Part shown: positions 1 through 32,286 of the stretch, in pieces
Layout of the letters: each line of letters begins with the position of its first letter
Numbering within the stretch: position 1 is the first letter of the stretch
Origin: Bacteroidia bacterium
GTDB lineage: Bacteria; Bacteroidota; Bacteroidia; JANWVE01
Length of the DNA: 32,757 nt
Assembly: GCA_025056095.1 (NCBI GenBank)
Contig: JANWVW010000007.1
Location: 1-32,757, forward strand
Direction of reading: 5' to 3'
The notes under the pieces: generated by a model
Told to the model about the DNA's origin: nothing
The model's database searches: none
What the model saw: only the letters and a program-made list of their open reading frames with translations
Position numbers and translations under genes: made by a program

Positions 1-121
1 CTTGCCCACACTTCGCTTGCGCTTGTGTGGGCAAGGTCGGCGTGCTACGGGCTACGCTCACGCTTCGGTGCTTCGCTTCGCTCCGCACTGGGCTAACGCC
101 CACCCTCCGCATGCCTCACGC
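1..121 (+). repeat. Dispersed GC-rich hairpin repeat, copy A (left end cut by window)
   Basis: GC-rich block in AT-rich DNA, one of seven related copies here. Stem 1 has 11-nt arms CTTGCCCACAC / GTGTGGGCAAG around a CGCTTGCG-containing loop. The block then runs through the shared GTCGGCGTGC box to stem 2 (TGGGC-TAAC-GCCCA) and ends in GCATGCCTCACGC. The T-run plus GGGCGTGCCC end is missing because the window begins inside the element. An open frame runs through it into the next gene; I treat that as accidental. Confidence 0.9.
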
Positions 122-161
122 AAAAAATAAAACTATCCCATTAAACGCGTATCTTTACTAC

Positions 162-1892
162 ATGAACCAAGTATTCTTCCCCTATGGCATAAGTAACTTT
201 GAAACACTAGTCAAAGACAACTACGTGTTTGTAGATAAAACTATTTTCATAGAAAAATTAGAGCAACACAAAGAAAGAAATGTATCCTTCTTACGCCCCC
301 GCAGATTTGGTAAAAGCTTGTGGCTCTCTATTTTAGAGTACTACTACGACATTAACCAAGCCCACAAATTTGACCAACTCTTTGGAAACTACTACATCGG
401 CAAAAACCCCACACCCCTGCACAACGCTTACCGAATTCTGCGTTTTGATTTCAGCGGCATAGACACCAGCACCAAAGAAAAAGCCAAAAAAGGATTTGCT
501 TTTTCAGTACTTAACGCAGTAAGAGAATTTGCAGATAAATACAAACTCTTTACACACGAACAAAGACAATTCATTTACCATCAAGCTGATGCAGAAGAAA
601 TTATCAATGCCTTTTTTAGAACCTATGCATCCAATGGATATTCAGAAAAAATTTACTTGCTTTTTGATGAATATGACCATTTTACGAACGATATTTTGTA
701 CCGCAGTTGGAATGAGTTTGTAGAGAGTGTGTCTAAACAAGGCTACATCCGCAAGTTTTATGAAGTTATCAAAAGTGCCACGCAACAAGGAGTTGTGGAT
801 AGGCTATTTATCACAGGCGTTTCTTCTTTGACTTTGGACGCCCTGACCAGCGGTTTTAACATCCTGACCGACCTTACCCACAGCCTTGAATTTGAAACTA
901 TGCTCGGATTTACCGAAAAAGAAGTACAACAATTAGTAGAACTGACTACAAAAGACAAAACTCTGCAAGCTAAAATTTTGCAAGAAATGAAAGAATGGTA
1001 CAACGGCTATCGGTTTTGTGAAACTTCTCACCAAACTCTGTACAATTCGGATATGGTTTTGTACTATTTGAAAGCTTTTCAAGAGACACACACTGCGCCC
1101 CGACGGTTGTTAGACCCTAACATTGCCCCTGACTATGGCAAACTCAAACAAATGTTTGAAGTGGTCAATCTGCAAAAGAACCAAGAAGTATTAGAAAAAG
1201 TACTACAAAATGGCTACATTGACGCCGAACTTATTCCGATATTCAACTTTGAAAAAGGTTTTACCCAAGCCGACTTTATCAACTTTTTGGCTTACTTGGG
1301 CAATTTGACCATTGGGGGCGTGGATGAAATTACAGGTAGAGTGCATTTCAAAATCCCTAACAAAGTGATTGAAGAACTGTATTGGCAGTATTATGCGGAT
1401 ATCCTAAACCAAATTCCTGAACTACAAAGCCAAAGTGAAGCAATAGACCAAGCCGTGATAAAAATGGCAAAGGAGGGAATATATGAAGATTTTTTTGTTT
1501 TGCTGGAAAAGGTTTTACAGACACTTTCCAATCGGGATTTTAGTAAGTTTAATGAGAAGTATGTAAAGGTAGTAATGGTGGCGTATTTAGTCTTGTCTAG
1601 TATTTTTGATGTAAGGAGTGAGGTAGAGCTTTTTGGGGGTGGTTATCCTGATGTGATGTTGATGAGAAGGCCGCAAAGGCAGCGGGAGCATCATGAGTAT
1701 GTGATAGAGTTGAAGTATTTGAAAAAGGAGGAGGAGAGTAGGTTGGATGAGGTCAGAGAGGAGGCTAAGCGTCAATTGTTGAGGTACTACCAACAAGATG
1801 AGGTATTACGGTGTAAGCCGTATTTGCATTTGTTGGCAGTAGTGTGCGTAAAAGATGTGCTGTATGTAGAGGAGGTAAAAGTACCTGCGTAA
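162..1892 (+). CDS. AAA-ATPase-like / PD-(D/E)XK nuclease-domain protein (DUF1703 type)
   Basis: 576 aa from the ATG at 162. The frame is open further upstream to 27, but that part lies in repeat copy A and is unlikely to be translated. The N-terminal half is an AAA-ATPase-like domain (PF09820 type): FVDKT near residue 23, a Walker-A-like RPRRFGKS at 45-52 and a Walker B LLFDEYD with Asp169. The C-terminal half is a PD-(D/E)XK nuclease-like domain (PF08011/DUF1703 type) with Asp497 and the E516-L-K518 triad intact. The family is abundant and multicopy in Bacteroidota, and its physiological role is not established. The gene stands alone between two repeats. Strand composition switches from C-rich to strongly G-rich at about codon 440, which may mark a recombination joint. 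Family assignment is from recognised motifs, not a search. Confidence 0.85.
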   Translation: MNQVFFPYGISNFETLVKDNYVFVDKTIFIEKLEQHKERNVSFLRPRRFGKSLWLSILEYYYDINQAHKFDQLFGNYYIGKNPTPLHNAYRILRFDFSGIDTSTKEKAKKGFAFSVLNAVREFADKYKLFTHEQRQFIYHQADAEEIINAFFRTYASNGYSEKIYLLFDEYDHFTNDILYRSWNEFVESVSKQGYIRKFYEVIKSATQQGVVDRLFITGVSSLTLDALTSGFNILTDLTHSLEFETMLGFTEKEVQQLVELTTKDKTLQAKILQEMKEWYNGYRFCETSHQTLYNSDMVLYYLKAFQETHTAPRRLLDPNIAPDYGKLKQMFEVVNLQKNQEVLEKVLQNGYIDAELIPIFNFEKGFTQADFINFLAYLGNLTIGGVDEITGRVHFKIPNKVIEELYWQYYADILNQIPELQSQSEAIDQAVIKMAKEGIYEDFFVLLEKVLQTLSNRDFSKFNEKYVKVVMVAYLVLSSIFDVRSEVELFGGGYPDVMLMRRPQRQREHHEYVIELKYLKKEEESRLDEVREEAKRQLLRYYQQDEVLRCKPYLHLLAVVCVKDVLYVEEVKVPA

Positions 1893-1900
1893 GCAGGTAC
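1881..1900 (+). other. Perfect hairpin with GTAA (GNRA-type) loop over the stop codon
   Basis: GTACCTGC and GCAGGTAC pair perfectly over 8 bp around the tetraloop GTAA, and the loop's TAA is the stop codon of the preceding gene. In RNA this would be a GNRA tetraloop hairpin. There is no T-run after it, so it is not a standard intrinsic terminator; it could protect the 3' end or act in termination with a factor. Bases 1901-1989 beyond it are G-rich and hold no gene I can see. Confidence 0.6.
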
Positions 1901-1989
1901 AAGAATTTAAGTTTGTAAGTGATTGAGAATAAGGTTGAGATGAGGTAGATAAGGTCAAGTTGAGGGTATTGAGGGAGTGTTATTCAATT

Positions 1990-2105
1990 GCGTGAGGGGC
2001 ATGGAGCATGCCGTTAGGCAGTGCGCAGCGTTAGCGGAGCACCGAAGCGAAGCGTAGTGCGGAGTGCCCCGACCCTTGCGTCAGCAAGGGGCACGCCCAA
2101 AAAAA
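1990..2105 (-). repeat. Dispersed GC-rich hairpin repeat, copy B
   Basis: Read on the minus strand it starts TTTTTTTGGGCGTGCCCC, forms stem CCCTTGC-TGAC-GCAAGGG, passes GTCGGGGCA, then a CGCTTCGCTTCGG segment and the small stem TGCC-TAAC-GGCA, and ends CCCCTCACGC. It uses the short TGAC-loop version of stem 1, as the composite copies D and E do at one end. It lies 97 bp after the ATPase/nuclease gene. Confidence 0.9.
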
Positions 2106-2113
2106 TAAATTAT

Positions 2114-2180
2114 TTAAGAATTCGCACAGATATAATGAACTTTGTTCATTTATCACAAAGTTTTTAACATAAGTTCTTAA
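2114..2180 (+). promoter_or_regulatory. Nested inverted repeats upstream of the NHL/OmpA gene
   Basis: An inner dyad AATGAAC-TTT-GTTCATT (2134-2150) lies within outer arms TTAAGAA (2114-2120) and TTCTTAA (2174-2180), ending 19 bp before the ATG at 2200. This could be an operator or a 5'-leader structure. AT-rich DNA gives such arms by chance fairly often, so confidence is low. No clear TAnnTTTG element was seen for this gene. Confidence 0.3.
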
Positions 2181-2199
2181 TTTAGCGTAAAATTAAAGT

Positions 2200-3966
2200 A
2201 TGTATAAAAAAGTAGTTATCTTACTTGCTATTACTGTAAGTGTTGCAGTGTGTCAAAACGCACAGCCAGAACCCGAATGGAAGGTTATTACATTTGCAGG
2301 GGGATTGATGGGCTACAAAGATGGAAAAGGTACAGAAGCCCGCTTCAATAGACCTAACGGCATGTGCATAGATATCTATGACAATATCTACGTATCTGAT
2401 GATGGAAATAACTGCATCCGTAAAATTACGCCAAATGGCGAAGTAAGCACTTTTGTTAAAGGAATACACGGATGCCCCGTTGCAGACAAAAAAGGTAATA
2501 TCTACGTAGCTTCTGAATACGAGCATGTTATTTACAAAGTAACACCAAACGGTAAAATTTCTGTATTCGCAGGCGGAGGAAAACCAGGATACAGAGATGG
2601 AGTAGGTAAAAATGCTCTGTTTAATCGCCCTGCAAGCATAGATATTGATGCAAATGACAATCTTATCGTAGCTGAAATGGATGGAAATTATATCCGTAAA
2701 ATTAGTCCTGACGGCACTGTAACCACTATCGCAGGAAGTGGTCAAGCTGGTTACGCTAATGGCAAAGGAAGAGAAGCCTCTTTTGACTGTCCATTAGGCA
2801 TTTGTATGGACGTAGATGACAATATTATTATCGTAGATAGCAGAAACAAAGCAATTCGCAAAATTACCCCTGATGGTGTAGTTACCACTATTCTCAATAG
2901 CAGATTCAAAGGATACGTAGATAAAACTAATGGCATTAGCAGTTTGAGCTTTGAAACAGGTAGAAATGATAACATACGCTACTACGGCAATTTTAATTGG
3001 TTAGACCCTTACAGCTTATCTGGAAGTAACTCTTGGGGGGGGGATGTGGTATTAGATAAAAGCCATAACAATCTCTACATTGCTGATGGGGGCAACAACT
3101 GCATTCTAAGAGTTAATTTTATTGACAAAACAGTAAGTGTATTTGCAGGAAACGGTAGAGCAGGCAGTAAAGATGGACCACCTTCTGTAGCTACCTTCAA
3201 TAATCCCGTAGAAATTGTAGTAGATAGTAAAGGAAATTTTTTTGTTGTAGATAATGGGGGACATGCTATAAGAAAAATTGAGCGCAGTTTTCCTGAAATT
3301 CCTAAAAAGAGAAGCGATAACGCTGCGATTGTAGTTAGCCCGCCTAAAACCAAAGAAACTGTTTTAATAGGTAAAGTAATTGACGCAGAAACTAAACAAC
3401 CCGTAGAAACCAAAGTAGACCTCATTTATACAAAAAACAATTCTAAAATTTCTTGTAATCACTCAAAGGAGGGCTTTAAGCAAACGTTAAAAGAAGGCGG
3501 AGAATATCAGTTGGTTGTAGAAGCACAAGGCTACCTACCCTACGAAACTAAAATAGAAGTCAAAGAAGGAACGGACAACCAAACAGTAATAGAACTTCAT
3601 AAAATAAAAAAAGGTGAAAAGGTAGTACTAAACAACATCTACTTTGAACCTAATAAATACACACTTGACCCTCGCTCTTATGAGGAACTAGAAAGAGTAT
3701 ATAACTTCCTTAAAACCTATCCTACGGTGCGGATTCGTATAGAAGGGCATACCGATGGTGGAGTTAAGGGAACCGATCCTGCTTATTTACAAAAGCTTTC
3801 CGAAGATCGTGCTAATGAGGTAAAGAATTGGCTTGTTCGTAAAGGCATAGATAAAAATCGTTTAGAAGCAGTAGGTTACGGTAGTTCTAGACCTATTGCG
3901 GATAATAATACCGAAGAGGGGCGTAAAAAGAATAGGCGGACTGAATTTGAAATTATTACAGAGTAG
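2200..3966 (+). CDS. Secreted NHL-repeat beta-propeller protein with C-terminal OmpA domain
   Basis: 588 aa. A signal peptide (MYKKVV, hydrophobic core, cleavage near residue 20) is followed by about six NHL-type blades (residues 30-365, recurring 'FNRPxxIxxDxxDNxxVxD...IRKIxPDG'). Then comes a carboxypeptidase-regulatory-like domain (about 385-470, GKVIDAETKQPV) and an OmpA C-terminal peptidoglycan-binding domain (about 477-588) with GHTDGG and LSEDRA carrying the usual Asp and Arg. It is probably periplasmic, anchoring the outer membrane to peptidoglycan. The order propeller-CRD-OmpA resembles the type IX secretion protein PorE, but with NHL blades and without TPRs; a T9SS role is only inference. 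A run of nine G at 3035-3043 lies in the coding sequence and is a possible slippage site. A good terminator follows at 4049. Confidence 0.85.
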   Translation: MYKKVVILLAITVSVAVCQNAQPEPEWKVITFAGGLMGYKDGKGTEARFNRPNGMCIDIYDNIYVSDDGNNCIRKITPNGEVSTFVKGIHGCPVADKKGNIYVASEYEHVIYKVTPNGKISVFAGGGKPGYRDGVGKNALFNRPASIDIDANDNLIVAEMDGNYIRKISPDGTVTTIAGSGQAGYANGKGREASFDCPLGICMDVDDNIIIVDSRNKAIRKITPDGVVTTILNSRFKGYVDKTNGISSLSFETGRNDNIRYYGNFNWLDPYSLSGSNSWGGDVVLDKSHNNLYIADGGNNCILRVNFIDKTVSVFAGNGRAGSKDGPPSVATFNNPVEIVVDSKGNFFVVDNGGHAIRKIERSFPEIPKKRSDNAAIVVSPPKTKETVLIGKVIDAETKQPVETKVDLIYTKNNSKISCNHSKEGFKQTLKEGGEYQLVVEAQGYLPYETKIEVKEGTDNQTVIELHKIKKGEKVVLNNIYFEPNKYTLDPRSYEELERVYNFLKTYPTVRIRIEGHTDGGVKGTDPAYLQKLSEDRANEVKNWLVRKGIDKNRLEAVGYGSSRPIADNNTEEGRKKNRRTEFEIITE

Positions 3967-4048
3967 CTCAAAATGAAGGTGCAAAGCAGTTTGACAAAGT
4001 AGACTGATAAAACCTTTTGGAAGCGAATAAGTAAGTTTAGAGAATACT

Positions 4049-4084
4049 ATGGCGGCGCTGGAAAGCAGTGTCGCCATAATTTTT
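4049..4084 (+). terminator. Intrinsic terminator of the NHL/OmpA gene
   Basis: Arms ATGGCGGCGCTG (4049-4060) and CAGTGTCGCCAT (4066-4077) form a 12-bp stem with two G-T pairs around the loop GAAAG, followed by AATTTTT. This is the only clear stem-plus-T-run terminator I found in the window. Confidence 0.8.
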
Positions 4085-4254
4085 ACAAAATCATTCCACA
4101 ATAGTTGGACTATTGCAGAAAACCTACGGAGAAAAATAAAAATGTATCCGTAGATACAAATTTGGTAGTTTTCAATGTCAGTTTTTCGGTTTAGGAAAGT
4201 TTGTTTTGTACTTAGTTTTTTTGAAAAGGATTTGTGAGGAGTTTTTAGTTTAAT

Positions 4255-4390
4255 GCGTGAGGCATGCGAAGGGTGGGCGTTAGCCCAGTGCGGAGCGAAG
4301 CGAAGCACCGAAGCGAAAGCGTAGCCCGAAGCACGCCGACCTTGCCCGCGTGAGCGCAGCGAAACGCGGGCAAGGGCACGCCCAAAAAAA
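4255..4390 (-). repeat. Dispersed GC-rich hairpin repeat, copy C
   Basis: Full-length copy on the minus strand: TTTTTTTGGGCGTGCCC end, stem 1 with arms CTTGCCCGCGT / ACGCGGGCAAG, the GTCGGCGTGC box, stem 2 TGGGC-TAAC-GCCCA, and the GCATGCCTCACGC end. Stem 1 differs from copy A on both arms with pairing kept. It lies 36 bp beyond the stop codon of the glycosylase gene. Confidence 0.92.
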
Positions 4391-4426
4391 TAGACCTCAA
4401 TTAGAATTAAACAAAGCAAACTAAAC

Positions 4427-5011
4427 TCAATACAACAAAAACCTGTAAGGCAATTCTGTACCCTTAGTTATACCTATGCGAGTAGTAGAAATGATATTCC
4501 TATTTTGCACTTCTGCATCCAAGATGTAAAGCTTATCTGAACATAAAGAAAGCATGTTGTGCGACATATCAATCCCCATTGCTTGACATAGTTTGCTTGG
4601 TCCACTGCAAAGTTGTTCAATTTTGGTTGTGTTTCTACGTTTTTGCATAATTTCTATTCCATAGAGGGGTTCCAAAGCGCGAATCAACACAGCTTCTCCT
4701 ACTCCTTCTTGACCACTAACTACATTAAAACAATAATGCATGCCATAAATCAAATACACATAGCTATTACCTGCCGACATAAACATAGCGGCATTTCGCT
4801 TAGTTTTTTTATTCATAAAAGCATGGCATGCAGGGTCATTATGTAAATAAGCTTCGGTTTCTATAATTCTGCCCGCGGTAACAGTGCCATCCTGTACGGA
4901 TACTAAAATTTTACCCAACAACTCTTTTGCCAGCGTAAGTGTATCGTATTCCTGATACCTATTAAACTTTGATGCTTTTAATGGCAGCATACTCGGGTGA
5001 GTTAACCCCAT
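4427..5011 (-). CDS. DNA-3-methyladenine glycosylase (AAG/MPG family)
   Basis: 194 aa. This is the monofunctional alkyladenine glycosylase family (PF02245), which flips out and excises alkylated purines such as 3-methyladenine to start base-excision repair. Seen: LAKELLGKIL near residue 28; RIIETEAY with the expected catalytic Glu53 and Tyr55; CHAF with His63; KTKRNAAMF; YVYLIYGMHYCFN; and VLIRALEP. These line up with human AAG motifs in order and spacing. The start is uncertain: ATG 5011 overlaps the upstream gene by 50 bp and ATG 4990 by 29 bp, and both keep the whole domain. The overlap suggests translational coupling to the duplicated unknown protein encoded upstream. Confidence 0.93.
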   Translation of the reverse strand: MGLTHPSMLPLKASKFNRYQEYDTLTLAKELLGKILVSVQDGTVTAGRIIETEAYLHNDPACHAFMNKKTKRNAAMFMSAGNSYVYLIYGMHYCFNVVSGQEGVGEAVLIRALEPLYGIEIMQKRRNTTKIEQLCSGPSKLCQAMGIDMSHNMLSLCSDKLYILDAEVQNRNIISTTRIGITKGTELPYRFLLY

Positions 5012-5651
5012 ATTGTACTTTAATGTAGGATTTAATTCGCTTTACACGCTCTGAAAGACCATTTTTGCCATTGTACAACTCTTGTCGTTGGGCTTTTACT
5101 TCATTTAGCTTTTGCAATACATTTTCGACTTCTGTGTGTAGTTCAATAAGATAATTGAGTTTTTTGGTTAGCTCTTCAATTGTAACCTGCTCTACAGTTG
5201 GATTGTACAAAACAGGAAATTTTTCAATTTCACTAATCATGCTTTTGAAAGCTTCGATAAGGCTATTGTAAGACAGTTCTGTAATTTTTTCTTCGCCCTC
5301 TTTTCTATGAATAGCTCGAGTGGTTTTGGCAATGGCGTTAATAGTGTTGTATTCGTGAGATTTGTTACCGTACTGGGCTTTAACTGCATTGAGGACTAAA
5401 GTTACTGTTTTTTGTAGTGAATCAGGTGCTGTGCGAAAAGCTTTTTGCCGCAAAGCAGCTAGTTCGCTATACCTTTTGCGTAATTCTGCTTCTTTTGCAT
5501 TTACCTCTGCGATAGCGTTCAATAAGTTACTTACGTCGGTTATAGACTCCCATTGGCGAGGAGGTTGATATTCAGGAAAGCTGCTAATGTAGTTCAAGAG
5601 TAATTGAGCTCTTTCGTACTTGGCTTCAAAAGTATTATTGGTTTTTGCCAT
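4962..5651 (-). CDS. Unknown protein with two tandem helical repeats ending in QYGxxSxEY
   Basis: 229 aa, no signal peptide or membrane segment. It is an internal duplication: each half is a long charged helical stretch followed by a conserved tail. The tails are VKAQYGNKSHEYNTINAI (about residues 90-107) and IKVQYGVNSPEYAAIKSI (about 209-226). The first helical half has AEVNAKEAELRKRYSELAAL, the second ELHTEVENVLQKLNEVKAQ. I do not recognise a named domain; similar YGxxSxEY proteins of unknown role occur in other bacteria, from memory only. The promoter at 5671-5702 is a textbook Bacteroidota one. The 3' end overlaps the glycosylase start. Confidence 0.8.
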   Translation of the reverse strand: MAKTNNTFEAKYERAQLLLNYISSFPEYQPPRQWESITDVSNLLNAIAEVNAKEAELRKRYSELAALRQKAFRTAPDSLQKTVTLVLNAVKAQYGNKSHEYNTINAIAKTTRAIHRKEGEEKITELSYNSLIEAFKSMISEIEKFPVLYNPTVEQVTIEELTKKLNYLIELHTEVENVLQKLNEVKAQRQELYNGKNGLSERVKRIKSYIKVQYGVNSPEYAAIKSIKV

Positions 5652-5670
5652 GTGCGTTTTAATTGCGGGG

Positions 5671-5702
5671 CAAATATAAAATATAAGTTTGTAAAAACCA
5701 AA
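5671..5702 (-). promoter_or_regulatory. Bacteroidota-type promoter of the duplicated unknown gene
   Basis: On the minus strand TTTG (5702-5699), exactly 20 nt, then TATATTTG (5678-5671). This matches the -33/-7 consensus TTTG-N~20-TAnnTTTG. The start codon is 19 nt further on. Confidence 0.75.
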
Positions 5703-5773
5703 TAAAAAGTTGTAAAGTTAGATAAGCTTTTATCAACACAATGAGAGGCTTAATTTTTAGGAGTGAGCTACTT

Positions 5774-7309
5774 TTATTCCCATTCAATAGTAGCAGGTGG
5801 CTTTGAGCTAATATCATAGACTACTCGGTTTATCCCTTTTACATGGTTAATAATTTGAGTAGAAACTGATGCTAAAAAAGAATGAGGTAGGGGTGCCCAA
5901 TCGGCTGTCATGCCATCTAGGCTGGTAACTGCGCGTAAGCAAGCAACTTGTTCGTAAGTACGTTCATCGCCCATTACTCCAACAGAATGCACGGGTAAAA
6001 GCACAGCAAAAGCTTGCCAAACAGTATGATACAAATTGTGTTTTTTTAAGTTTTCTATGAAAATAGCATCTATTTCTTGTAACAAAGCTACTTTTTGTTG
6101 AGTAATTTCTCCTATTATCCGAATAGCAAGCCCAGGTCCTGGAAATGGATGCCTGTTGAGTAATGCATCAGGCAGGTTTAGCACTTTTCCTAAGTTTCTC
6201 ACTTCATCTTTGAATAACATTCGCAAAGGTTCTATTAGCTTCAAGTGCATTTTTTGAGGTAAGCCACCTACATTGTGATGAGATTTTATAGTTACAGAAG
6301 GTCCTTTGACTGAAACAGATTCTATTACATCGGGGTAAATAGTACCTTGAGCTAAAAACTGCACATTTGGAATTTTTTGTGCTTCTGCTTCAAATACTTC
6401 AATAAAAACTCTGCCGATAGTTTTACGCTTTTGTTCAGGGTCCGTAATGCCCTTTAAGGATTCATAAAATTTTTGTTGTGCTTTTACACCTATTACGTTC
6501 AAGCCTAGGGCTTGATATTGCTCTAAAACTTGTTCGTACTCATTTTTGCGTAGCAAACCATTATCTACAAAAATACAGTGTAAACGTTTGCCAATAGCTT
6601 TATGAATTAACACAGCGGTTACGGAAGAGTCCACTCCACCTGATAGACCACATACTACGTTTGCCTTTTCTCCTACTTGCAAGTTGATGTCAGCAATAGT
6701 GCGTTGAATGAAGTTTTCGGCGGTCCAGTTGGGTTGGCATTTTGCTATGTTGTAGACAAAATTTTGTAAAATTTCTTTACCTTGTAAAGTGTGTACTACT
6801 TCGGGGTGAAATTGTACGCCGTAGATAGGTTTTGTTTCATGTTTGAATGCAGCAATAGGGATGCTTTCTGTTTGGGCTATTACTTGGTAGTCTTTTGCTA
6901 GTTCTAGTATGCTATCGGCATGACTCATCCATACTTGGGTATGTGGACTAATATTTTTGAAGAGAGTATTGTCTTTAATTTGTGTTAGATTTGCTCTACC
7001 ATACTCACGTATGGCAGCTTTTTCTACTTTACCTCCTTGTTTGTGAGCAATGAGCTGCGCCCCATAGCATATTCCCAAAGTAGGCAAGCTAAGTATTTTT
7101 TGCCATACCTCTTGGGTTATATTCGGTGCTTCGGGTTGGTGTACGCTTGCAGGGCTACCCGATAGAATAATTCCTTTTGTATTATTGTCTAGAGCTCGTG
7201 CAGCTTCATAAAAGGGATGTATTTCGCAATATACGTGCAATTCTCTTATTCTGCGAGCTATGAGCTGCGTGTACTGCGAACCAAAATCTAATATCACAAT
7301 CTTTTGCAT
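5774..7309 (-). CDS. guaA: GMP synthase (glutamine-hydrolysing)
   Basis: 511 aa, the usual full length. It converts XMP, ATP and glutamine to GMP in purine synthesis, in the cytoplasm. The N-terminal class I glutamine amidotransferase domain has nucleophile Cys81 (GICYGAQ) and the His168/Glu170 pair in GVQFHPEV. The ATP-pyrophosphatase domain has the P-loop SGGVDSS at 222-228. The C-terminal dimerisation domain ends in the conserved PPATIEWE. All catalytic residues are present. The gene is alone on its strand, with TATTTTTG at 7318-7325 eight nt before the ATG. Confidence 0.98.
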
Positions 7310-7317
7310 AATTTGTG

Positions 7318-7325
7318 CAAAAATA
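7318..7325 (-). promoter_or_regulatory. -7 element of guaA
   Basis: TATTTTTG on the minus strand, 8 nt before the start codon. No convincing -33 TTTG at the expected distance. Confidence 0.5.
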
Positions 7326-7466
7326 CATACTGTATTTGTTTGTAAGTTTTTGGGATGTTAAAAGTGTGAAGTAAATTGAGTAGATTAAAAATTATGAAAT
7401 TATGATTGTAGTCAAAATGTATAATGGGTATTGTTGAAATAGACAATGAGGATTTACTTTTGCGTT

Positions 7467-8086: not shown

Positions 8087-8103
8087 CTAAGTACCATCAA
8101 AAA

Positions 8104-8424: not shown

Positions 8425-8442
8425 TCTTCACAACCTCCTCTC

Positions 8443-9084: not shown

Positions 9085-9179
9085 AAGAAACTTGTTAAGT
9101 TCTAGCTGCAATATTAAGAACAAACTTTTAGAAAGTCAACCACTAATCTAAAAAATTCTTATATATCTAAAATCTTGCA

Positions 9180-16113: not shown

Positions 16114-16513
16114 CAATTCAGATAGAAAAATAGGAATAATTATTTTAGGTTGATTTCAAAAAAATTTGCAAACTTCGCAGCGGTTTAATGATCATGTTCT
16201 TGTAGGAGGGACTTTGCATTTAGATTATTATTAGCTTTTATTTAGTACCATTCATCGTGATGTAAAGCTTATTCTTAAAGTTATTTTTTTGGGCGTGCCC
16301 CTTGCTGACGCAAGGGTCGGGGCATTCCGCACGTAGCCCGTAGCACGCCGACCTTGTGGGCATGAGCGCAAGCGAAACGCCCACAAGGGCACGCCCAAAA
16401 AAATTATATTACATTCGTTCTTTTAATTTATTTAATTACAGCCAATGCTTTTCCACAAAAAGAATCATCAAAAAATCGTGCAAATTGGTTAATACAAGCA
16501 GTTTAGTAAAAGT
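16114..16513. other. Intergenic region between the sigma gene and dnaX
   Basis: About 400 bp holding repeat copy D (16284-16403). The AT-rich DNA on both sides shows no gene, RNA gene or terminator that I can recognise. Confidence 0.7.
16284..16403. repeat. Dispersed GC-rich repeat, copy D (double-ended composite)
   Basis: Both ends are the T-run/GGGCGTGCCC end, in inverted orientation. The left part has stem CCCTTGC-TGAC-GCAAGGG and GTCGGGGCATTCCGCAC. The right part, read on the minus strand, has stem CTTGTGGGCGT / ATGCCCACAAG (one G-T pair), then GTCGGCGTGC. The GCATGCCTCACGC end is absent. It is nearly the same as copy E in reverse, apart from the stem arms. Confidence 0.9.
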
Positions 16514-21543: not shown

Positions 21544-21662
21544 TTTTTTTGGGCGTGTCCTTGCCCACACTTCGCTTGCGCTTGTGTGGGCAAGGTCGGC
21601 GTGCTACGGGCTACGTGCGGAATGCCCCGACCCTTGCGTCAGCAAGGGGCACGCCCAAAAAA
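21544..21662. repeat. Dispersed GC-rich repeat, copy E (double-ended composite)
   Basis: Same composite as copy D in opposite orientation. The left end is GGGCGTGTCC with stem CTTGCCCACAC / GTGTGGGCAAG, then GTCGGCGTGC. The right end, read on the minus strand, has GGGCGTGCCCC with stem CCCTTGC-TGAC-GCAAGGG. The stem 1 arms equal those of copy A, not D. It lies between converging genes, 10 bp after the DUF5686 stop and 37 bp from the stop of the FAD oxidase. Confidence 0.9.
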
Positions 21663-23109: not shown

Positions 23110-23112
23110 ACA

Positions 23113-23120
23113 CAAATATA
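23113..23120 (-). promoter_or_regulatory. -7 element of the FAD-linked oxidase gene
   Basis: TATATTTG on the minus strand, 3 nt before the ATG at 23109; it decides against the TTG start within it. Confidence 0.5.
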
Positions 23121-23198
23121 CTTATAGAAATTCTATACGTTGTTAAGTAGTAAAAGTTCAGCGTGATAATTTTTGAAGAGTAGTATTATCAAGTTTTA

Positions 23199-23206
23199 TA
23201 TCTTTA
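23199..23206 (+). promoter_or_regulatory. -7 element of cinA
   Basis: TATCTTTA, one base off TAnnTTTG, 4 nt before the GTG start. A TTTTTG lies about 23 nt upstream as a possible -33 element. Confidence 0.45.
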
Positions 23207-23210
23207 CCTT

Positions 23211-24479: not shown

Positions 24480-24542
24480 CATCAAGGCATCTTAAACTTA
24501 ATCCTATTTTTTTATTGTATTTCAAAAAGTAAAAAAGGTTGA

Positions 24543-24550
24543 TACCTTTG
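24543..24550 (+). promoter_or_regulatory. -7 element of truA
   Basis: TACCTTTG, 4 nt before the ATG. The -33 region is weak. Confidence 0.55.
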
Positions 24551-24554
24551 TGCT

Positions 24555-25316: not shown

Positions 25317-25322
25317 AAATCG

Positions 25323-27458
25323 TTACCTTGTAGAAGAAGTATATTTGAAATCGCCAATAATTTTTAGGTCAATACCATAATCACTGTAAATTTTTGTACC
25401 ATTAACAGTATTGAGTACAATTTTGAATACCACTTTCTTGCTAGTGCGGATACGTGCCATTCTATCTTTATTGAAGTAGGCAGGCATAATTGTGCGATTA
25501 GGTTCAGTAATGAGACCTGCACCATTATCTTTACCTGCTTGGGCAACTTTAGGTCCATTAGCAAATAGAGAATCTATGATTTGCTTATTTGCATCCAAAA
25601 AATAAGCTTGAATAGCTGCTGAAAAAGGAAATTTATTGTCTATCATAAGTTTAAGCGTACCTTCGGCAATTTCTAATCCGCCTGTATTAGCAAAGCTAAT
25701 GTTGGAGGTATCTACTAAGGTTAAATGATCTGCAACCCCATTAAGAGGAATGTTGATAAGCAAATCTGCTTTTACTCGACTGTTATGAAACGCGTGGTTA
25801 GTGTAAGAAGTGCTAGGTACGCCTTCATTCATTTTAGCTACACCTTCGTAAGTAATTTTATTGGGCAGATTATTCAAAAAGGCTTGAATATTGGAGTTAC
25901 TTTTGTTAATGCTATAAGTATTAGTGATGGTTTGCCCTGGTTGGGAGAGAGTAGGTCCGTAGATAGTAATAGGATTATCTATCACAGGAGAGGTTAAGGT
26001 TACTACATTTCCTGTTCTAGTATTAACTCCTTTAATTTTACCTGCTATATAAAGGTTAGCATTTACGCCAATAGAATTTTCTACGGTCAGATCCATGTTG
26101 ATGTTTTGAAAGTCAAAGGTACCTGCCTTAATTTTGTTGAAAAAGGCGAAATCCACGCTACCAGGTTCTATGTTAATAGTTTTATTTATAAACCACCCTT
26201 CGGCATATTCAGGAACTACGTCATACAATCCATAAGTTACCTTCACACTGTCTGATATATCAATTGTTCGCTCTATACCTGTAGAATCTATTCTTACTTT
26301 GAATATTTGTTCAAAAGTGTTGACAGTATTACCTGGTCCTCCATGCTCGTTGTAAGTATAGTCTATTTCATATCCATCAATATACGCAGTAGTGGTATCT
26401 ACTCGTACGCCCCCAGGGGGAGCAGGTGGCACTTTTGCGATAGCAATTAAAGAATCACCATCTTTAATGGCTTTTGGAACAGAAAATAAAATATGCATCG
26501 TGTCCTCCAAGGCTGACTCGGCTTTTATTCTAATTTTGCCCGTTTTTACTTTAATTTTAGTAATGTTGTTTCCAGCCATGTTGTACACGATAAACTTTCT
26601 ATCATTTTTCAAGTATTGAGTAGGGAATATTGCTGTGGCTTTTTCAGCTTGTAAATCGTATGCTTTCAAATGTATAATAATAGCTTTATTTGTATCAATA
26701 GGAACATTTGTGGATGCAGGTACTTGCATAGTTTTTACCTGCCCTTCCATAAGCCCTTCTATGGTTTTACCTGCAAGGTTCTCCGTATGTTTATACGTTC
26801 CTGTATCTGCTTCTAAGGCATAAGGAACGACTACGTTTGCAATAGTAGCCTTATCTGTTTTATTTCGTAGTTCAAAACTCAAATTTTGTATCTCTATAGG
26901 AAAGTGGTTCTCCATCTTAATTTCTAAAAATCCTGTTTTGAGCTTGGCGGTCTTAAACAAAGAGGTAGCATTAAATTCTGACCATGGGGAAGTGGGTCCT
27001 GCAGTGTAGCTAAGCGCAGGAATGTTAGGAATAGTGCTCCCATGACTGGCTATTATAGCATTTCCTAAAAATATATTTGAAGGCGTTCCTGTTGCAATCA
27101 AGTCCCTAGCAAACCTTCCTAATGTGTACTGATAAGTAACTGTTTTTGAAGAAAGTTTGAGTGAGTCTAACTTGGCATACTGTACCAACTCTGTATCAGG
27201 AATAGAAAGATACTTTTTCAGGGGTATATCTAACAAAGTTTGCTTGTGTACGTAGGTAAGCGAGTTATCCCCCTCTACTTTAAGGGAAGTATCCCCTACC
27301 AAGTTTTGCATCGTTAAACGTGTAGTTACTAATGGGGTTAAAGCATTACTTTCCCACTGCGGATTTTCTAAATTTTTAGTGCTATATTTACAACCTGATA
27401 AACCTAAAAACAGACTGAAAAAAACAAGAGCAGCAAGAGGTAAAAATTTCGGTTTCAT
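25323..27458 (-). CDS. Large predicted lipoprotein, unknown function
   Basis: 711 aa. Signal peptidase II motif LSGC with Cys23 after a 20-residue hydrophobic signal, so lipid-anchored. The chain is Thr/Asn/Ile-rich and probably all-beta. I see weakly repeating units with 'GxLxIxMENHFPI' and 'GTLKLMIDNKFPF' (about residues 176 and 614), which suggests duplicated beta-sandwich domains. No catalytic motif. After Cys come Lys-Tyr-Ser, with no acidic surface-export signature. It is not a SusD homolog by any motif I can see. It has a strong divergent promoter and is divergent (47 bp) from the TonB-dependent receptor gene. Confidence 0.75.
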   Translation of the reverse strand: MKPKFLPLAALVFFSLFLGLSGCKYSTKNLENPQWESNALTPLVTTRLTMQNLVGDTSLKVEGDNSLTYVHKQTLLDIPLKKYLSIPDTELVQYAKLDSLKLSSKTVTYQYTLGRFARDLIATGTPSNIFLGNAIIASHGSTIPNIPALSYTAGPTSPWSEFNATSLFKTAKLKTGFLEIKMENHFPIEIQNLSFELRNKTDKATIANVVVPYALEADTGTYKHTENLAGKTIEGLMEGQVKTMQVPASTNVPIDTNKAIIIHLKAYDLQAEKATAIFPTQYLKNDRKFIVYNMAGNNITKIKVKTGKIRIKAESALEDTMHILFSVPKAIKDGDSLIAIAKVPPAPPGGVRVDTTTAYIDGYEIDYTYNEHGGPGNTVNTFEQIFKVRIDSTGIERTIDISDSVKVTYGLYDVVPEYAEGWFINKTINIEPGSVDFAFFNKIKAGTFDFQNINMDLTVENSIGVNANLYIAGKIKGVNTRTGNVVTLTSPVIDNPITIYGPTLSQPGQTITNTYSINKSNSNIQAFLNNLPNKITYEGVAKMNEGVPSTSYTNHAFHNSRVKADLLINIPLNGVADHLTLVDTSNISFANTGGLEIAEGTLKLMIDNKFPFSAAIQAYFLDANKQIIDSLFANGPKVAQAGKDNGAGLITEPNRTIMPAYFNKDRMARIRTSKKVVFKIVLNTVNGTKIYSDYGIDLKIIGDFKYTSSTR

Positions 27459-27470
27459 ATTATTTCATAG

Positions 27471-27503
27471 CAAAAATAAAGTTTTTTTACTTACTTTGCA
27501 AAA
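27471..27503 (-). promoter_or_regulatory. Bacteroidota-type promoter of the lipoprotein gene
   Basis: Minus strand: TTTTG (27503-27499), 20 nt, TATTTTTG (27478-27471), then 12 nt to the ATG. Full -33/-7 match inside the 47-bp divergent region. It overlaps the region needed for the receptor gene's own promoter, so the two may compete. Confidence 0.75.
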
Positions 27504-27505
27504 GC

Positions 27506-29914
27506 ATGCGGATTTTTTTATTAAGTGTATATTTGTTTCTACTGGTTACATACTCTTTTACGCAAAGTTCATTAGAAGGTAAAATCACGGATATCAACAA
27601 CAAACCTATACCTGGTGTAAGCGTGTATTTACAGGACTCTCTCAATTTTGCTACAACTTCAGACACAAATGGATATTACAAACTTATTTTACCCCCAGGT
27701 ACGCATTGGATTGTCTATAAACTTACAGGTAAAAAAACTGAACTTTACCAAGCTATACTGCGCAAAGCAGAGAAGCAAGTAAAAAACATGGTAATGGTAG
27801 ATGAAGCGATTCACACAGGTACAGTCCAAGTCAAGTCTCAAAGTAATGATAATTTTGACCTTAAAACCAAAGATATTGAGGTTATGCCTATTCCTGCGGG
27901 AGGAATAGAAAAGATGTTAAGGTACTTACCAGGCGTAGTTAGTAATAACGAATTTAGCTCACAATACTCTGTACGCGGGGGCAATTTTGATGAAAATCTC
28001 ATTTATGTCAATGACATAGAAGTTTACAGACCTTTTATGATACGCAGCGGGCAACAGGAAGGATTAGGCTTCGTCAACCCTGACCTTACAGAAAGTATTT
28101 ATTTCAGTACGGGCGGCTTTGAAAGTAAATATGGCGATAAAATGTCTTCTGTATTAGCCGTAGAATATAAAAAACCTGAAAAATTAGCAGGTTCAGTCCA
28201 ATTAGGCGTGTTAGGTGCAAATATCCACGTAGAAAACAGAACTAAAAACGAAAAATTATCATATCTTTTAGGTGTACGTTATGCTAGCACTCGGTATTTG
28301 CTCAACTCTCTGGATACCAAAGGAAACTACCAACCTACTTTTACCGATATCCAATCGTGGATAGAATACAAACCTGCACAAAAATTCTCCTTAGGCATGC
28401 TCAATACGTATGCACGCAATAATTATCAATTTTATCCCACTAACCGAGAAACTACTTTTGGCACAATAAAAAATGTACTGCGTTTATTCGTAGCTTTTGA
28501 AGGACAAGAATTTGCCCGATATAGCACTTTTCTTAACGGAATAGTAGGCACTTACAAACCTAACTTTAATTGGACACATAAATGGATTGTCAGCACTTAT
28601 TTTTCCAAAGAAAGTGAAGTTTTTGATGTAGAAGGGGGATACAGACTTTGTGATGTTAATGCAAACTTAGGTAATGAAGGATTCAATGAATGCATATTTA
28701 ATCGTGGAATTGGTACGTACTACCAGCATGCGCGGAATTTTTTAAATGTTCAGGTTATAGCAGGGGACTATAAAGCAGCATGGGTCGATGATAGTGTAAG
28801 ACACAAAGTAGAATTCGGTACGCGTGCTGAGCAAAACCTCATTTTTGATACTTTGAAAGAGTGGAACGCCGTAGACTCGGCAGATTTTGTTAGTATGGGG
28901 GAATATCTTAAAACAAACATTACCCTTCAAACTGTGCGATGGCAGGGGTATGCTCAATATAAGCGTTTTTGGAGAGATAGGACTACACAACAAAATGTAG
29001 TTCAAGTTTGTGTAGGTGCAAGGACTAACTATTGGAGTTACAACCATCAGCTTTTGTTTAGTCCAAGAGTGCAGTTTACTTATACGCCGCAGCATTGGAA
29101 ACGCATCAAAAAAACAGGGGATACCATTCCTGTGGGGATAGAGTTCAGAGTTGCTACGGGCTTATATCAGCAGCCCCCTTTTTACAGAGAACTGCGCAAT
29201 CGTTCAGGAGTGCTTAACCCTCAAATTCGGGCGCAAACTTCTATACACTACATTGCAGGAACTACCTATAACCTCAAAATTTGGAATAGACCCTTCAAAA
29301 TTATGGCTGAAGCTTATTACAAACAGCTCTTTAACCTTATTCCGTATGATATTGAAAACGTTCGTATTCGCTATTTTGCACAAAATAATGCTCGCGGGTA
29401 TGCCACAGGTTTTGATTTTCGTATCAATGGAGAATTTGTGCGAACCGTAGAAAGTTGGTTTTCGCTTAGTATTATGCAAACTAAGGAAGACATTCAAGGG
29501 GATAAAGATATTCAAGGCAATGAACGTGGGTACATCCTTCGCCCTACTAATCAAACCGTAACGGCACAGATTGTTTTTCAGGATTATTTACCTAAAAATC
29601 CTACTATAAAAGCCAATTTAGCTTTGATATATGGCTCAGGTTTGCCTTTTGGACCGCCGAATAATCCTGCTTTTAGAAGCATTTTTACCATGCCTGCTTA
29701 TCGGAGAGTGGATGTAGGTATCAGCAAACTGATTTCTTATGATGACACACGCAAGGTAAAGTCCATTTGGATAGGGTTGGAAGTGTTTAATGTTTTTCAA
29801 ATTGCTAATACTGTTTCTTACATTTGGATTGAGGACGTATTTGGAACGCAGTTTGGCGTGCCTAATTATTTAAGTCAGCGGTTATTAAATTTGCGTGTGC
29901 AAGTTAAGTTTTGA
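27506..29914 (+). CDS. TonB-dependent outer-membrane receptor with CRD-type N-terminus
   Basis: 802 aa. A signal peptide (MRIFLLSVYLFLLVTYSFTQ) precedes a carboxypeptidase-regulatory-like domain (about 22-100: GKITDINNKPIPGVSVYL, DTNGYYKL). The plug domain (about 115-225) has LRYLPGVVS, YSVRGGNFDENLIYVND and GGFESKYGDKMSS. A 22-strand-type barrel follows, ending in Phe (LRVQVKF). It imports or exports a large or scarce ligand using TonB energy. No SusD partner, so it is not a standard Sus pair; the ligand is unknown. It is divergent from the lipoprotein gene, which could be a functional partner, though this is untested. Confidence 0.92.
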   Translation: MRIFLLSVYLFLLVTYSFTQSSLEGKITDINNKPIPGVSVYLQDSLNFATTSDTNGYYKLILPPGTHWIVYKLTGKKTELYQAILRKAEKQVKNMVMVDEAIHTGTVQVKSQSNDNFDLKTKDIEVMPIPAGGIEKMLRYLPGVVSNNEFSSQYSVRGGNFDENLIYVNDIEVYRPFMIRSGQQEGLGFVNPDLTESIYFSTGGFESKYGDKMSSVLAVEYKKPEKLAGSVQLGVLGANIHVENRTKNEKLSYLLGVRYASTRYLLNSLDTKGNYQPTFTDIQSWIEYKPAQKFSLGMLNTYARNNYQFYPTNRETTFGTIKNVLRLFVAFEGQEFARYSTFLNGIVGTYKPNFNWTHKWIVSTYFSKESEVFDVEGGYRLCDVNANLGNEGFNECIFNRGIGTYYQHARNFLNVQVIAGDYKAAWVDDSVRHKVEFGTRAEQNLIFDTLKEWNAVDSADFVSMGEYLKTNITLQTVRWQGYAQYKRFWRDRTTQQNVVQVCVGARTNYWSYNHQLLFSPRVQFTYTPQHWKRIKKTGDTIPVGIEFRVATGLYQQPPFYRELRNRSGVLNPQIRAQTSIHYIAGTTYNLKIWNRPFKIMAEAYYKQLFNLIPYDIENVRIRYFAQNNARGYATGFDFRINGEFVRTVESWFSLSIMQTKEDIQGDKDIQGNERGYILRPTNQTVTAQIVFQDYLPKNPTIKANLALIYGSGLPFGPPNNPAFRSIFTMPAYRRVDVGISKLISYDDTRKVKSIWIGLEVFNVFQIANTVSYIWIEDVFGTQFGVPNYLSQRLLNLRVQVKF

Positions 29915-29969
29915 GTGTTGTTAAGGCTTGGCATTGTGTAAGATATTTTGAGTTTCTTTTTATGGATTA

Positions 29970-30086
29970 TTTTTTGGGCGTGCCCCTCGCTTGCGCTCGG
30001 GTCGGCGTGCTACGGGCTACGCTATCGCTTCGGTGCTACGCTGCGCTCCGCACCGTGCTAACGCACGCCCTCCGCATGCCTCACGC
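29970..30086 (+). repeat. Dispersed GC-rich hairpin repeat, copy F
   Basis: TTTTTTGGGCGTGCCC end. Stem 1 is reduced to about 3 bp (CCC/GGG) but the loop TCGCTTGCGCTC is kept exactly. GTCGGCGTGC follows, then stem 2 CGTGC-TAAC-GCACG and the GCATGCCTCACGC end. It lies 55 bp after the TonB receptor and 5' of the restriction-modification genes, in direct orientation with copy G. Confidence 0.92.
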
Positions 30087-30180
30087 AAACTAAATCACAA
30101 AATTTGATAATCTGATACAAATATAACCACTTTCTTTCCCATCAGTAGCAGCATTACACATTTTCAAGCTAAATTATGTG

Positions 30181-30188
30181 TAAATTTG
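30181..30188 (+). promoter_or_regulatory. -7 element of the restriction endonuclease gene
   Basis: TAAATTTG, 11 nt before the ATG at 30200; no clear -33. Confidence 0.45.
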
Positions 30189-30199
30189 TATAACTAGCC

Positions 30200-30982
30200 A
30201 TGAATTATTGGACTGCATTAAGTATTGAGTACGCAAATCAAAAATCTTACTTAGATGACTTATTTCAGGTTTACCCTACTATTCCCGAAGGAATCAGAGA
30301 AATTGAGCAAGAAAATTGGAGTAGAATAGAGTTGGCTTTCAAAAGTCAGGACAACGTAGCACTCATTAAGGAACTTCTAAATTTGGACTTATTTCCTATA
30401 AAAGATAGCTATGTGGCTTTTCTTAAACGAGATATTGGGTCAATAGAACGAAATCCTAAAACCGTAAATAGAATTTGTGGTCGGTTATATGAAATGGGGC
30501 TCGAGAAAATCTTTGAAAAGTGTACTGAACCAAAAGAAACTAATCGGCAAATTGGACCACTTTTTCGTAGATGGCTAAATAAAAAGGCATTAGGGATACA
30601 ACCTGTAAGTTTGAAAAAATTCATAAGTTCAGAAGAGGACGCAATCTTAGATGGTAGTGATTATGAATTAGCTGAATTTAGTAGAAAGGTTTTGAATTAC
30701 AATAGAGAAAAAGGGCTTGATTTTGTAGCAAGGTTTAACAAAAAGTATATCATAGGTGAAGCTAAATTTCTTACAGATTTTGGAGGGCATCAAAATGCAC
30801 AGTTTGAAGATGCTATTAAAACCTTAGAAACGCCAGATGTTAAAGCCATTAAAATTGCAATTCTTGACGGAGTATTGTACATAAAGGGAAACCACAAAAT
30901 GTACCGAGATTTAACCACTAAATACAAAGAATACAATATCATGAGTGCCTTATTATTGCGTGATTTTTTGTATCAAGTTTGA
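30200..30982 (+). CDS. Type II restriction endonuclease (probable)
   Basis: 260 aa. The function is assigned from a PD-(D/E)XK-like core late in the chain, Asp174 (GLDFVARF), then Glu187-x-Lys189 (IIGEAKFLTDFGGHQ), together with the adenine methyltransferase gene 34 bp downstream. The GEAKF-x-TDFGGHQ pattern recurs in type II enzymes I have seen, possibly Tsp45I-like, but I cannot fix the recognition site. The N-terminal 150 residues are helical and presumably bind DNA. The catalytic triad looks intact, so the system may be active. The pair is flanked by repeat copies F and G. Confidence 0.8.
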   Translation: MNYWTALSIEYANQKSYLDDLFQVYPTIPEGIREIEQENWSRIELAFKSQDNVALIKELLNLDLFPIKDSYVAFLKRDIGSIERNPKTVNRICGRLYEMGLEKIFEKCTEPKETNRQIGPLFRRWLNKKALGIQPVSLKKFISSEEDAILDGSDYELAEFSRKVLNYNREKGLDFVARFNKKYIIGEAKFLTDFGGHQNAQFEDAIKTLETPDVKAIKIAILDGVLYIKGNHKMYRDLTTKYKEYNIMSALLLRDFLYQV

Positions 30983-30993
30983 TAATTTTTGTT

Positions 30994-31001
30994 TATTTTT
31001 G
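30994..31001 (+). promoter_or_regulatory. -7 element of the methyltransferase gene
   Basis: TATTTTTG within the gap between the two genes, 15 nt before the ATG at 31017. A separate methyltransferase promoter would let methylation precede cleavage when the genes enter a new host; that role is inference. Confidence 0.45.
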
Positions 31002-31016
31002 TACAAGTCAAAAGCA

Positions 31017-32150
31017 ATGTTTTTACAATACCCTAACAAAAAGACATTACAAGAAATTTACGCACAAATTCCTGACAGCCAATGGATAAAACAGAACGAT
31101 GTAGAAAGTAAGAATAAGCTAATTTTTGGTGAGAACCTACTCGTAATTAAAAACCTGATAGAAAAACAAGGATTTGTAGGAAAGATTGATTTAATTTACA
31201 TTGATCCTCCTTTCGCTACTAATAGTATTTTTACTTTTTCTGATGAACGGACTAGCACCATTAGTGCTGAAAAAAATGGAAAAGTAGCTTATTCAGATAA
31301 GTTGCAAGGCGCTGCTTTTTTAGAATTTTTGCGAGAGAGGTTAATTTTGTTAAAAATGCTTTTGTCGGAGCAAGGCTCTATTTACGTACATACCGACTAC
31401 AAAATAGGGCATTATGTTAAAATTATAATGGACGAAATTTTTGGCATAGAAAATTTTAGAAATGACATTACTCGTATTAAGTGCAATCCTAAAAATTTTG
31501 CCAGAAAAGCTTACGGTAATATCAAGGATTTGATTTTATTCTATTCAAAAGGCAAAAATCCTATTTGGAATGAACCTAAGCTTCCATACACAGAAGAAGA
31601 CAAAATCAAACTATTTCCTAAAATAGACAAAGATGGCAGGCGTTACACTACTATTCCTTTACATGCTCCAGGAGAAACCCAAAAAGGTTATACTTCGCAG
31701 CCATTTAGGGGGTTACTTCCACCTAAAGGTAGGCACTGGCGGACGGATGTAAATACCTTAGAACTTTGGGATAAGCAGGGACTTATTGAGTGGTCAGATA
31801 CAGGCAATCCTCGTAAGAAAATTTATTTAGATGAGCAGGAAGGAAAAAGGGTACAAGATGTTTGGGAGATGAAAGACCCTCAGTACCCTGTATATCCGAC
31901 AGAAAAAAATGCGGAGTTATTAAATCTTATCATCAGAACGTCTTCAAATCCAAATAGTTATGTATTAGATTGTTTTTGTGGTTCAGGGACTACCTTAAAG
32001 GTAGCTCATTACTTGGGCAGAAACTGGATAGGCATAGATCAATCTGAACAGGCTATAAAAGTTTGCATTCAGCAGTTAGATAATCTGACAGAAGACATAT
32101 TTACCACAAAACCAACCTATGAAAAAATAAGATGCGAGGTAATCAGCTAA
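31017..32150 (+). CDS. DNA adenine N6-methyltransferase of a type II R-M system (beta class)
   Basis: 377 aa from the ATG at 31017; the frame is open to an ATG at 30945, but that would overlap the nuclease gene and the -7 element. Motif IV DPPF at 63-66 (LIYIDPPF) comes before the AdoMet-binding motif I FCGSGTT (from about 320), the order of beta-class N6-adenine or N4-cytosine methyltransferases; DPPF favours adenine. It methylates the site cut by the partner nuclease. The middle region (about 165-300, with PFRGLLPPKGRHW) is the target-recognition part. The stop TAA is followed directly by the T-run of repeat copy G. Confidence 0.92.
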   Translation: MFLQYPNKKTLQEIYAQIPDSQWIKQNDVESKNKLIFGENLLVIKNLIEKQGFVGKIDLIYIDPPFATNSIFTFSDERTSTISAEKNGKVAYSDKLQGAAFLEFLRERLILLKMLLSEQGSIYVHTDYKIGHYVKIIMDEIFGIENFRNDITRIKCNPKNFARKAYGNIKDLILFYSKGKNPIWNEPKLPYTEEDKIKLFPKIDKDGRRYTTIPLHAPGETQKGYTSQPFRGLLPPKGRHWRTDVNTLELWDKQGLIEWSDTGNPRKKIYLDEQEGKRVQDVWEMKDPQYPVYPTEKNAELLNLIIRTSSNPNSYVLDCFCGSGTTLKVAHYLGRNWIGIDQSEQAIKVCIQQLDNLTEDIFTTKPTYEKIRCEVIS

Positions 32151-32286
32151 TTTTTTTGGGCGTGCCCTTGTGGGCATTCGCTTGCGCTCATGCCCACAAG
32201 GTCGGCGTGCTACGGGCTACGCTTTCGCTTCGGTGCTGCGCTTCGCTGCGCACCGTGCTGACGCACGCCCTTCGCATGCCTCACGC
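32151..32286 (+). repeat. Dispersed GC-rich hairpin repeat, copy G
   Basis: Full-length copy. TTTTTTTGGGCGTGCCC end; stem 1 12 bp (arms including CTTGTGGGCAT / ATGCCCACAAG, 32166-32177 with 32190-32201) around the loop TCGCTTGCGCTC; GTCGGCGTGC; stem 2 CGTGC-TGAC-GCACG; and the GCATGCCTCACGC end. It begins at the base after the methyltransferase stop codon. Direct orientation with copy F. Confidence 0.93.

Follow-up and report, generated by a model that had tools for sequence, protein, structure and literature searches.

The window analysed here is a 32,757-nucleotide contig (JANWVW010000007.1 of assembly GCA_025056095.1) from a Bacteroidia bacterium of the lineage JANWVE01, and it contains an intergenic repeat that had been predicted, from the letters alone, to form stems that covary between seven copies. 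These repeats are very probably the structured ends of a dispersed family of inverted-ended mobile elements, with long copies that bear a gene and shorter copies that are deletion derivatives. The draft genome to which the window belongs, as contig C7, has 3.05 Mb in 397 contigs (G000), and we sampled 1.08 Mb (~35%) of it. In addition, 0.28 Mb of SKYG108 (G297) and 0.61 Mb of N1_Bin_MAXBIN__037_1 (G298), two drafts of the same genus, were sampled.

The unit of the family is a module of 107-131 nt. It runs from T6-7-GGGCGTGYCC through a variable hairpin (P2), GGTCGG and a second structured arm to a terminal CTCACGC. Modules have a short or a long P2 hairpin, and the consensus fold is alike in both head classes: P1 (GCGTG/CACGC), P2, a 7-bp P3, a 3x3 internal loop, a 3-bp P4, and terminal hairpins. 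In short-hairpin modules (n = 50 distinct), 99.4% of 1599 cells were paired, and two-sided changes were found at 10 pairs (shuffled mean 3.5) and in 57 cells (shuffled 12.8). Neither value was matched in any of 500 shuffles, and slid structures gave 0-2 pairs. In long-hairpin modules (n = 67), 4 pairs of stem P2 are switched in ~27 sequences, and one pair of the second hairpin (CGTGC/GCACG versus TGGGC/GCCCA) is switched in 29. The 15 distinct long P2 arm pairs form a mean of 10.4 of 11 pairs, compared with 8.74 after shuffling (maximum 9.80 in 2000). The covariation of the original prediction is thus real and well above chance by the shuffles and the slid controls, much of it being a few hairpin haplotypes swapped between copies and not hundreds of independent events. 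When single window copies (listed below) were folded as DNA and compared with shuffles, G (z -5.6) and D (z -4.5) were clearly more stable, B (-2.0) and C (-2.3) more weakly so, and F was not more stable. The loops of the small hairpins vary freely across modules (GCTAACGC, GCTGACGC, GCTATCGC, GCTTCGC). For two P2 hairpins, a version with an inverted loop also exists; extrusion of the hairpin as DNA would lead one to expect this, which is suggestive only.

The family is far larger than the seven copies first described. The head pattern GGGCGTGNCCN{6,36}GGTCGG occurs 365 + 366 = 731 times in G000, or once per about 4-5 kb on average, and 0 times when it is read in reverse. The same pattern occurs 1499 times in SKYG108 and 46 times in G298, and elements make up ~2.8%, 11.3% and 0.2% of the sampled DNA of G000, SKYG108 and G298, respectively. 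Inward-facing module pairs come in discrete sizes of 106 bp, 333-352 bp, ~600 bp, 1.3-1.6 kb and 2.1-2.4 kb. All 58 inverted pairs in G000 (92-106, 333-370 and 564-616 bp) join one long with one short hairpin, while those of SKYG108 are mostly 400-620 bp and include all four hairpin combinations. Only 2 of 169 elements lie in open reading frames (ORFs), though ORFs cover 85% of the DNA. The outer boundaries are sharp at T6-7/A6-7, and the flanks are T/A-rich, with a T-rich consensus and no further conserved end. Several AT-rich palindromes of ~50 bp (TTTTACCTTGT...ACAAGGTTAAA) stand in similar order in the spacers of ~600-bp elements (L161-L167, L239 and other SKYG108 loci). Contigs C2 and C12 and the sampled parts of C21, C40 and C41 of G000 have stretches of 16-40 kb without any head and with similar GC content, perhaps contamination or a recent region.

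Part of the evidence that these modules are the ends of larger elements comes from the genes between them. For genes of at least 200 aa, we recorded how the nearest heads within 450 bp face, and outward facing was the usual arrangement. Inward-facing heads on both sides were found for 5 of 632 such genes in the G000 sample, and one of these was an artefact of an N run. The remaining four encode one protein family, the Rpn-like nucleases, and tblastn showed that they are all the complete Rpn-like members of the sample; the chance of picking exactly those four out of about 631 genes is, by arithmetic, about 1 in 6.5 billion. A fifth Rpn-like gene of G000 is cut by a contig end and has a module on its visible side, and SKYG108 has one further gene, which is also enclosed. 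Intact Rpn-like PD-(D/E)XK genes found in the module-rich genomes lie between inward-facing modules in 5 of 5 cases. The proteins (299-351 aa) align to TIGR01784, the model of the Rpn recombination-promoting nuclease/putative transposase, in three of five cases (E 1e-6 to 8e-9), and one protein each to PF12784 (E 1.5e-4) and PF04754 (E 0.016). Residues D10, D58, E76, Q78 and R88 are invariant in six homologues, keeping the PD-(D/E)XK order D, D, E-x-Q, R; the RpnA residues are D11, D63, E82, Q84 and R94 (PMC5350276). The proteins of L044, L061, L071 and L167 also have a C-terminal run of EKQRAEQ heptads that varies in number and resembles the variable, repeat-rich tail of RpnS (PMC10327210).

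In the window, all seven copies were confirmed at their predicted coordinates and with their predicted arms. The single unit type assumed for them had to be corrected, since only D and E have two heads each, joined face to face, and the other five copies (A, B, C, F, G) consist of one module apiece, giving nine heads in total. The enclosure of nuclease genes by module pairs, including the pair at 1-2105, had been missed. No Rfam family matched anywhere in the window at the gathering score, and we found no literature on the window's repeat. The features are as follows.

1-2105, plus strand: long composite copy with a nuclease gene, consisting of left module A, the AAA-ATPase/PD-(D/E)XK gene, inverted right module B and a right A7
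1-121, plus strand: copy A, long-hairpin module at the left end of the long copy, its head truncated at the contig end
162-1892, plus strand: gene for a 576-aa AAA-ATPase-like (PF09820, E 2.7e-47) and PDDEXK_9 (PF08011, E 4.1e-15) protein of the 'DUF1703' family
1990-2105, minus strand: copy B, right end of the long copy, with a short-hairpin module (1990-2098) and A7 (2099-2105)
4255-4390, minus strand: copy C, solo long-hairpin module (4255-4383) and A7
16284-16403, no strand assigned: copy D, 106-bp minimal element with two heads face to face (short and long hairpin), core 16291-16396, T7/A7
21544-21662, no strand assigned: copy E, 106-bp minimal element, core 21551-21656, T7/A6
29970-30086, plus strand: copy F, solo module of recombinant type, a short hairpin with a long-type core, T6 at 29970-29975
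32151-32286, plus strand: copy G, solo long-hairpin module, T7 at 32151-32157

In the stretch from F to G, both solo modules, lie a Tsp45I-type restriction enzyme gene (30200-30982) and the gene of its N6/N4 methyltransferase (30945-32150). The two modules have the same orientation, and thus 29976-32286 is not an inverted composite.

The nuclease gene of the window belongs to a second family that occupies the same slot. Module A lies 5' and inverted module B 3' of it, the outermost left T7-GGGCGTGCC having been lost at the contig edge, and L239 of SKYG108 matches this layout. G000 has four such DUF1703 copies, the window copy and three more, that have the module-gene junction in common; outside the T run, the flanks of the two copies with sampled upstream DNA are unrelated. 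In SKYG108, all five fetched copies have inward modules on every side visible in the contig, and AT-rich palindromes lie between module and gene. Most AAA-ATPase/PD-(D/E)XK genes of the module-rich genomes are between inward-facing modules. AAA-ATPase_like and PDDEXK_9 ('DUF1703') proteins of Cardinium cCpun have the same domain order and form an expanded family as well. In the part of that source that we saw, no mobile-element ends are described for them (PMC6387759), unlike here, where most copies in two genomes are flanked by inverted modules.

The short copies can be traced to the long ones. Homology between long copies ends at a T6-8 run and an A7 run, and the outer flanks are unrelated. 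Of the 109-bp spacers in the 333-352-bp copies, 34 of 35 match the region of L061a between the stop codon of the Rpn-like gene and the right module, the best at 95-97% over about 75 bp (97% over 73 bp) from spacer position 34 on. The first ~30 bp of the spacers match the other flank type, as in L071. Therefore, the 333-352-bp copies are internally deleted derivatives, similar to miniature inverted-repeat transposable elements (MITEs). The 19 shortest sampled copies (92-106 bp), of which copy D is one, have a common internal junction with differing P2 hairpins, suggesting that the minimal form probably multiplied and that hairpins were exchanged between copies.

Few gene pairs are common to these partial genomes, leaving three informative syntenic sites. 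At L213:3085-3776, SKYG108 has a complete element that G298 lacks, and between another gene pair G000 has a solo module, again lacking in G298. The third site, between cydA and cydB, has an orthologous solo module in G000 and SKYG108 (L076:1757-1873; L203 about 5999-6130), in which CGTGC/GCACG of the second hairpin is changed to CATGC/GCATG on both arms.

In our reading, the element consists of two inverted modules, with a short T run at one edge and an A run at the other, and most copies are non-autonomous, MITE-like derivatives. Each module is formed by T6-7 and a P1 stem (GCGTG/CACGC) closing the variable hairpin P2 together with a longer arm, P3/P4/P5. The long copies (1.3-1.6 kb and 2.1-2.4 kb) carry the gene for a PD-(D/E)XK nuclease of one of the two families, Rpn-like or AAA-ATPase-PDDEXK_9. 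We propose that the copies of 333-352 bp arose when the gene was lost and those of 106 bp when most of both modules was lost, and that the solo modules are half elements. The nuclease might recognise the folded end, as a cruciform or as single-stranded DNA, and act in trans to move every form into intergenic DNA rich in T and A, leaving no visible target-site duplication. Selection for foldable ends and exchange of whole hairpins between copies could then produce the covariation. In our judgement, this full mechanism, an insertion sequence (IS)-like family in which the enclosed nuclease moves all forms via their folded ends, is evenly poised between right and wrong, and we lean towards a nuclease that moves the element over one that only rides in it. 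The element could represent a mode of DNA movement that has so far gone unrecognised.

Several observations weigh against this proposal. Movement is deduced from comparing sequences, and no target-site duplication was found, as no combination of offset and length was clearly above shuffles in 56 + 45 pairs. Two different nuclease families share one slot, and cargo would look alike. The low-copy congener G298 has three Rpn-like genes, none of them enclosed. It also has DUF1703 copies without modules (L241, L245, L249, L252, L261), as does a CALLNY metagenome-assembled genome (L251-L258, L262). Moreover, 17 module-rich genomes from outside the genus have no DUF1703, which thus cannot drive all related modules; as their general driver it was rejected. 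The matches to the Rpn family models fall below the curated cut-offs (TIGR01784, 28.6-35.7 bits against 52.1; PF12784, 22 against 27.4; PF04754, 15.2 against 21), and a transposase function of Rpn has been judged highly unlikely (PMC10327210). Furthermore, the reading covered ~35% of G000, and its short-read assembly breaks at these repeats, as seen from the head that lies within 150 bp of the left end in 30 of 46 sampled contigs. A conventional transposase that the assembly had collapsed might thus have escaped notice. In the DUF1703 copies of G298 and CALLNY, homology covers the gene and about 12-38 bp upstream, and the flanks are unrelated, a pattern of gene-only dispersal or gene conversion.

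Some of these points would suit a single mobile family whose nuclease genes are passengers, defence or toxin-like, and whose ends are moved by another enzyme. The two families in one slot, their occurrence without modules in G298 and the related modules of other genera without DUF1703 all fit such a view, as do Rpn proteins, which have been reported as anti-phage toxin-antitoxin systems that perhaps hitchhike on mobile elements (PMC10327210). We consider passengers unlikely, if worth keeping in mind, given that the 1.08 Mb of G000 showed no further multi-copy ORF resembling a transposase and that no Y1 transposase was found, that both occupants of the slot are PD-(D/E)XK nucleases and not varied cargo, and that the 333-352-bp copies stem from a copy bearing an Rpn-like gene.

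Old, vertically inherited sites, at which gene conversion and recombination of hairpins (cruciforms) rewrite the copies while little transposition goes on at present, would explain the shared cydA-cydB site with its compensated stem change, the hairpin haplotypes shuffled between copies and the inverted hairpin loops. They would not explain a 30-fold difference in copy number within one genus, syntenic sites that are occupied in one genome and empty in another, or 106-bp derivatives with the same junction at 19 sites, and we regard this explanation as improbable.

Even less probable is a structured RNA family, a small RNA (sRNA) similar to Flavo-1 or a cis element, in which covariation would reflect selection on RNA. 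The strong covariation agrees with it, and so do relatives filed as sRNA. The original prediction mentioned similar blocks in other Bacteroidota, and the head is indeed found in other Bacteroidia, where many modules match Flavo-1 of Rfam (RF01705). The genomes G154, G202, G142, G068 and G021 of other genera each have at least 82-126 Flavo-1 matches among at most 150 candidates scored per genome, counts that would suit a dispersed repeat better than an sRNA gene. Transcriptome work on Flavobacterium psychrophilum showed that Flavo-1 copies lie in sense or antisense alike and that many are untranscribed (PMC9723704). The modules of the genus under study fail RF01705, with 0 matches in G000, G297 and G298 (150 of several hundred candidates scored) and none even at E < 10 when the window modules were searched alone, and thus they were not filed as Flavo-1, which is probably a distant relative. 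A model built from our own modules (R1) finds modules of other genera weakly (E 4e-4 to 0.03) and one, L112, strongly (1.6e-13), at loci preselected by a common 15-base head pattern. Single modules between tandem genes lie 17 with and 16 against transcription, which together with the intergenic location speaks against a strand-specific RNA, as do the inverted pairs, discrete sizes, sharp ends and empty sites. The original prediction took the fold to be important in RNA or in single-stranded DNA; the covariation supports the fold, and DNA is favoured over RNA because of the 17:16 split and the position of modules at the ends of transposon-like units. An intrinsic terminator was rejected by reasoning only, as the T run before and the A run after the GC stems stand in the wrong order on both strands.

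Repetitive extragenic palindromic (REP) sequences or bacterial interspersed mosaic elements (BIMEs) moved by a REP-associated tyrosine transposase (RAYT; Y1 HUH) are the least probable explanation of all. High-copy, intergenic, inverted hairpin pairs and one Y1 gene of G049 with a module ~300 bp away would fit, but the search for such a transposase that had been advised found no PF01797 in G000 (E <= 0.001) or in the congeners G297, with its 1499 heads, and G298 (E <= 10), no Y1 accompanies the Flavo-1 copies of G202, of which there are at least 82, the G049 gene has other REP-like hairpins of its own, and only two scanned Y1 loci had a Flavo-1 match nearby; this explanation is rejected for the genus unless assembly has lost a Y1 gene from each of the three drafts.

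In many bacterial phyla, rpn genes bear the annotation 'putative transposase', yet the current literature holds that they lack terminal inverted repeats and probably are not transposases. A genus with Rpn-like genes between structured ends and hundreds of deletion derivatives makes the transposase question directly testable, and Flavo-1, a Bacteroidota 'small RNA' without an assigned function, is worth re-examining as a dispersed DNA repeat. Our boldest suggestion, which we put forward tentatively, is that the Rpn-like PD-(D/E)XK nuclease could represent a new transposase class, autonomous and working on large, folded ends of DNA, and that Flavo-1 and similar 'RNAs' could be relics of related folded ends and not RNA genes. 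If true, rpn genes would gain the element ends that they were said to lack.

Among known systems, Flavo-1 shares with the modules the GGGCGT..GGTCGGGC head, seen in its matching modules of other Bacteroidota, as well as high copy number and a 3x3 internal loop between short stems, whereas it is filed as an sRNA and its model is without stems P1 and P2. REP/BIME elements with RAYT are similar in their inverted pairs of palindromic units dispersed between genes and in the recognition of folded DNA that we propose here, but the units of the present family are far larger and no Y1 transposase accompanies them. Correia, ERIC and RUP elements are short intergenic MITEs with inverted ends and several size classes. 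Like these (Correia/NEMIS, ERIC, RUP) and BrickBuilt of Porphyromonas gingivalis (PMC4596501), the family is short, intergenic and inverted-ended, with several size classes that arise by internal deletion of a longer element. Its short copies are dispersed, and their own genome holds a gene-bearing parent with which they have ends and inner sequence in common; its long copies have the sharp ends and unrelated flanks of an insertion sequence. Unlike in MITEs, the ends are multi-branched modules of 107-131 nt with compensating stem changes instead of simple terminal inverted repeats, neither a DDE or Y1 transposase nor a target-site duplication was seen, and the parent carries a PD-(D/E)XK nuclease. 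The Rpn/PDDEXK_2/Transposase_31 family (TIGR01784, PF12784, PF04754) is the closest to that nuclease, by alignment below the cut-offs, the D, D, E-x-Q, R pattern and a variable, repeat-rich C-terminal part. Published rpn genes have variable ends without identifiable terminal inverted repeats, and no autonomous transposase is said to have their fold (PMC10327210). The clash with that account, over inverted ends and over the transposase fold, is the point of interest: the genes described here lie between well-defined structured ends and are accompanied by deletion derivatives.

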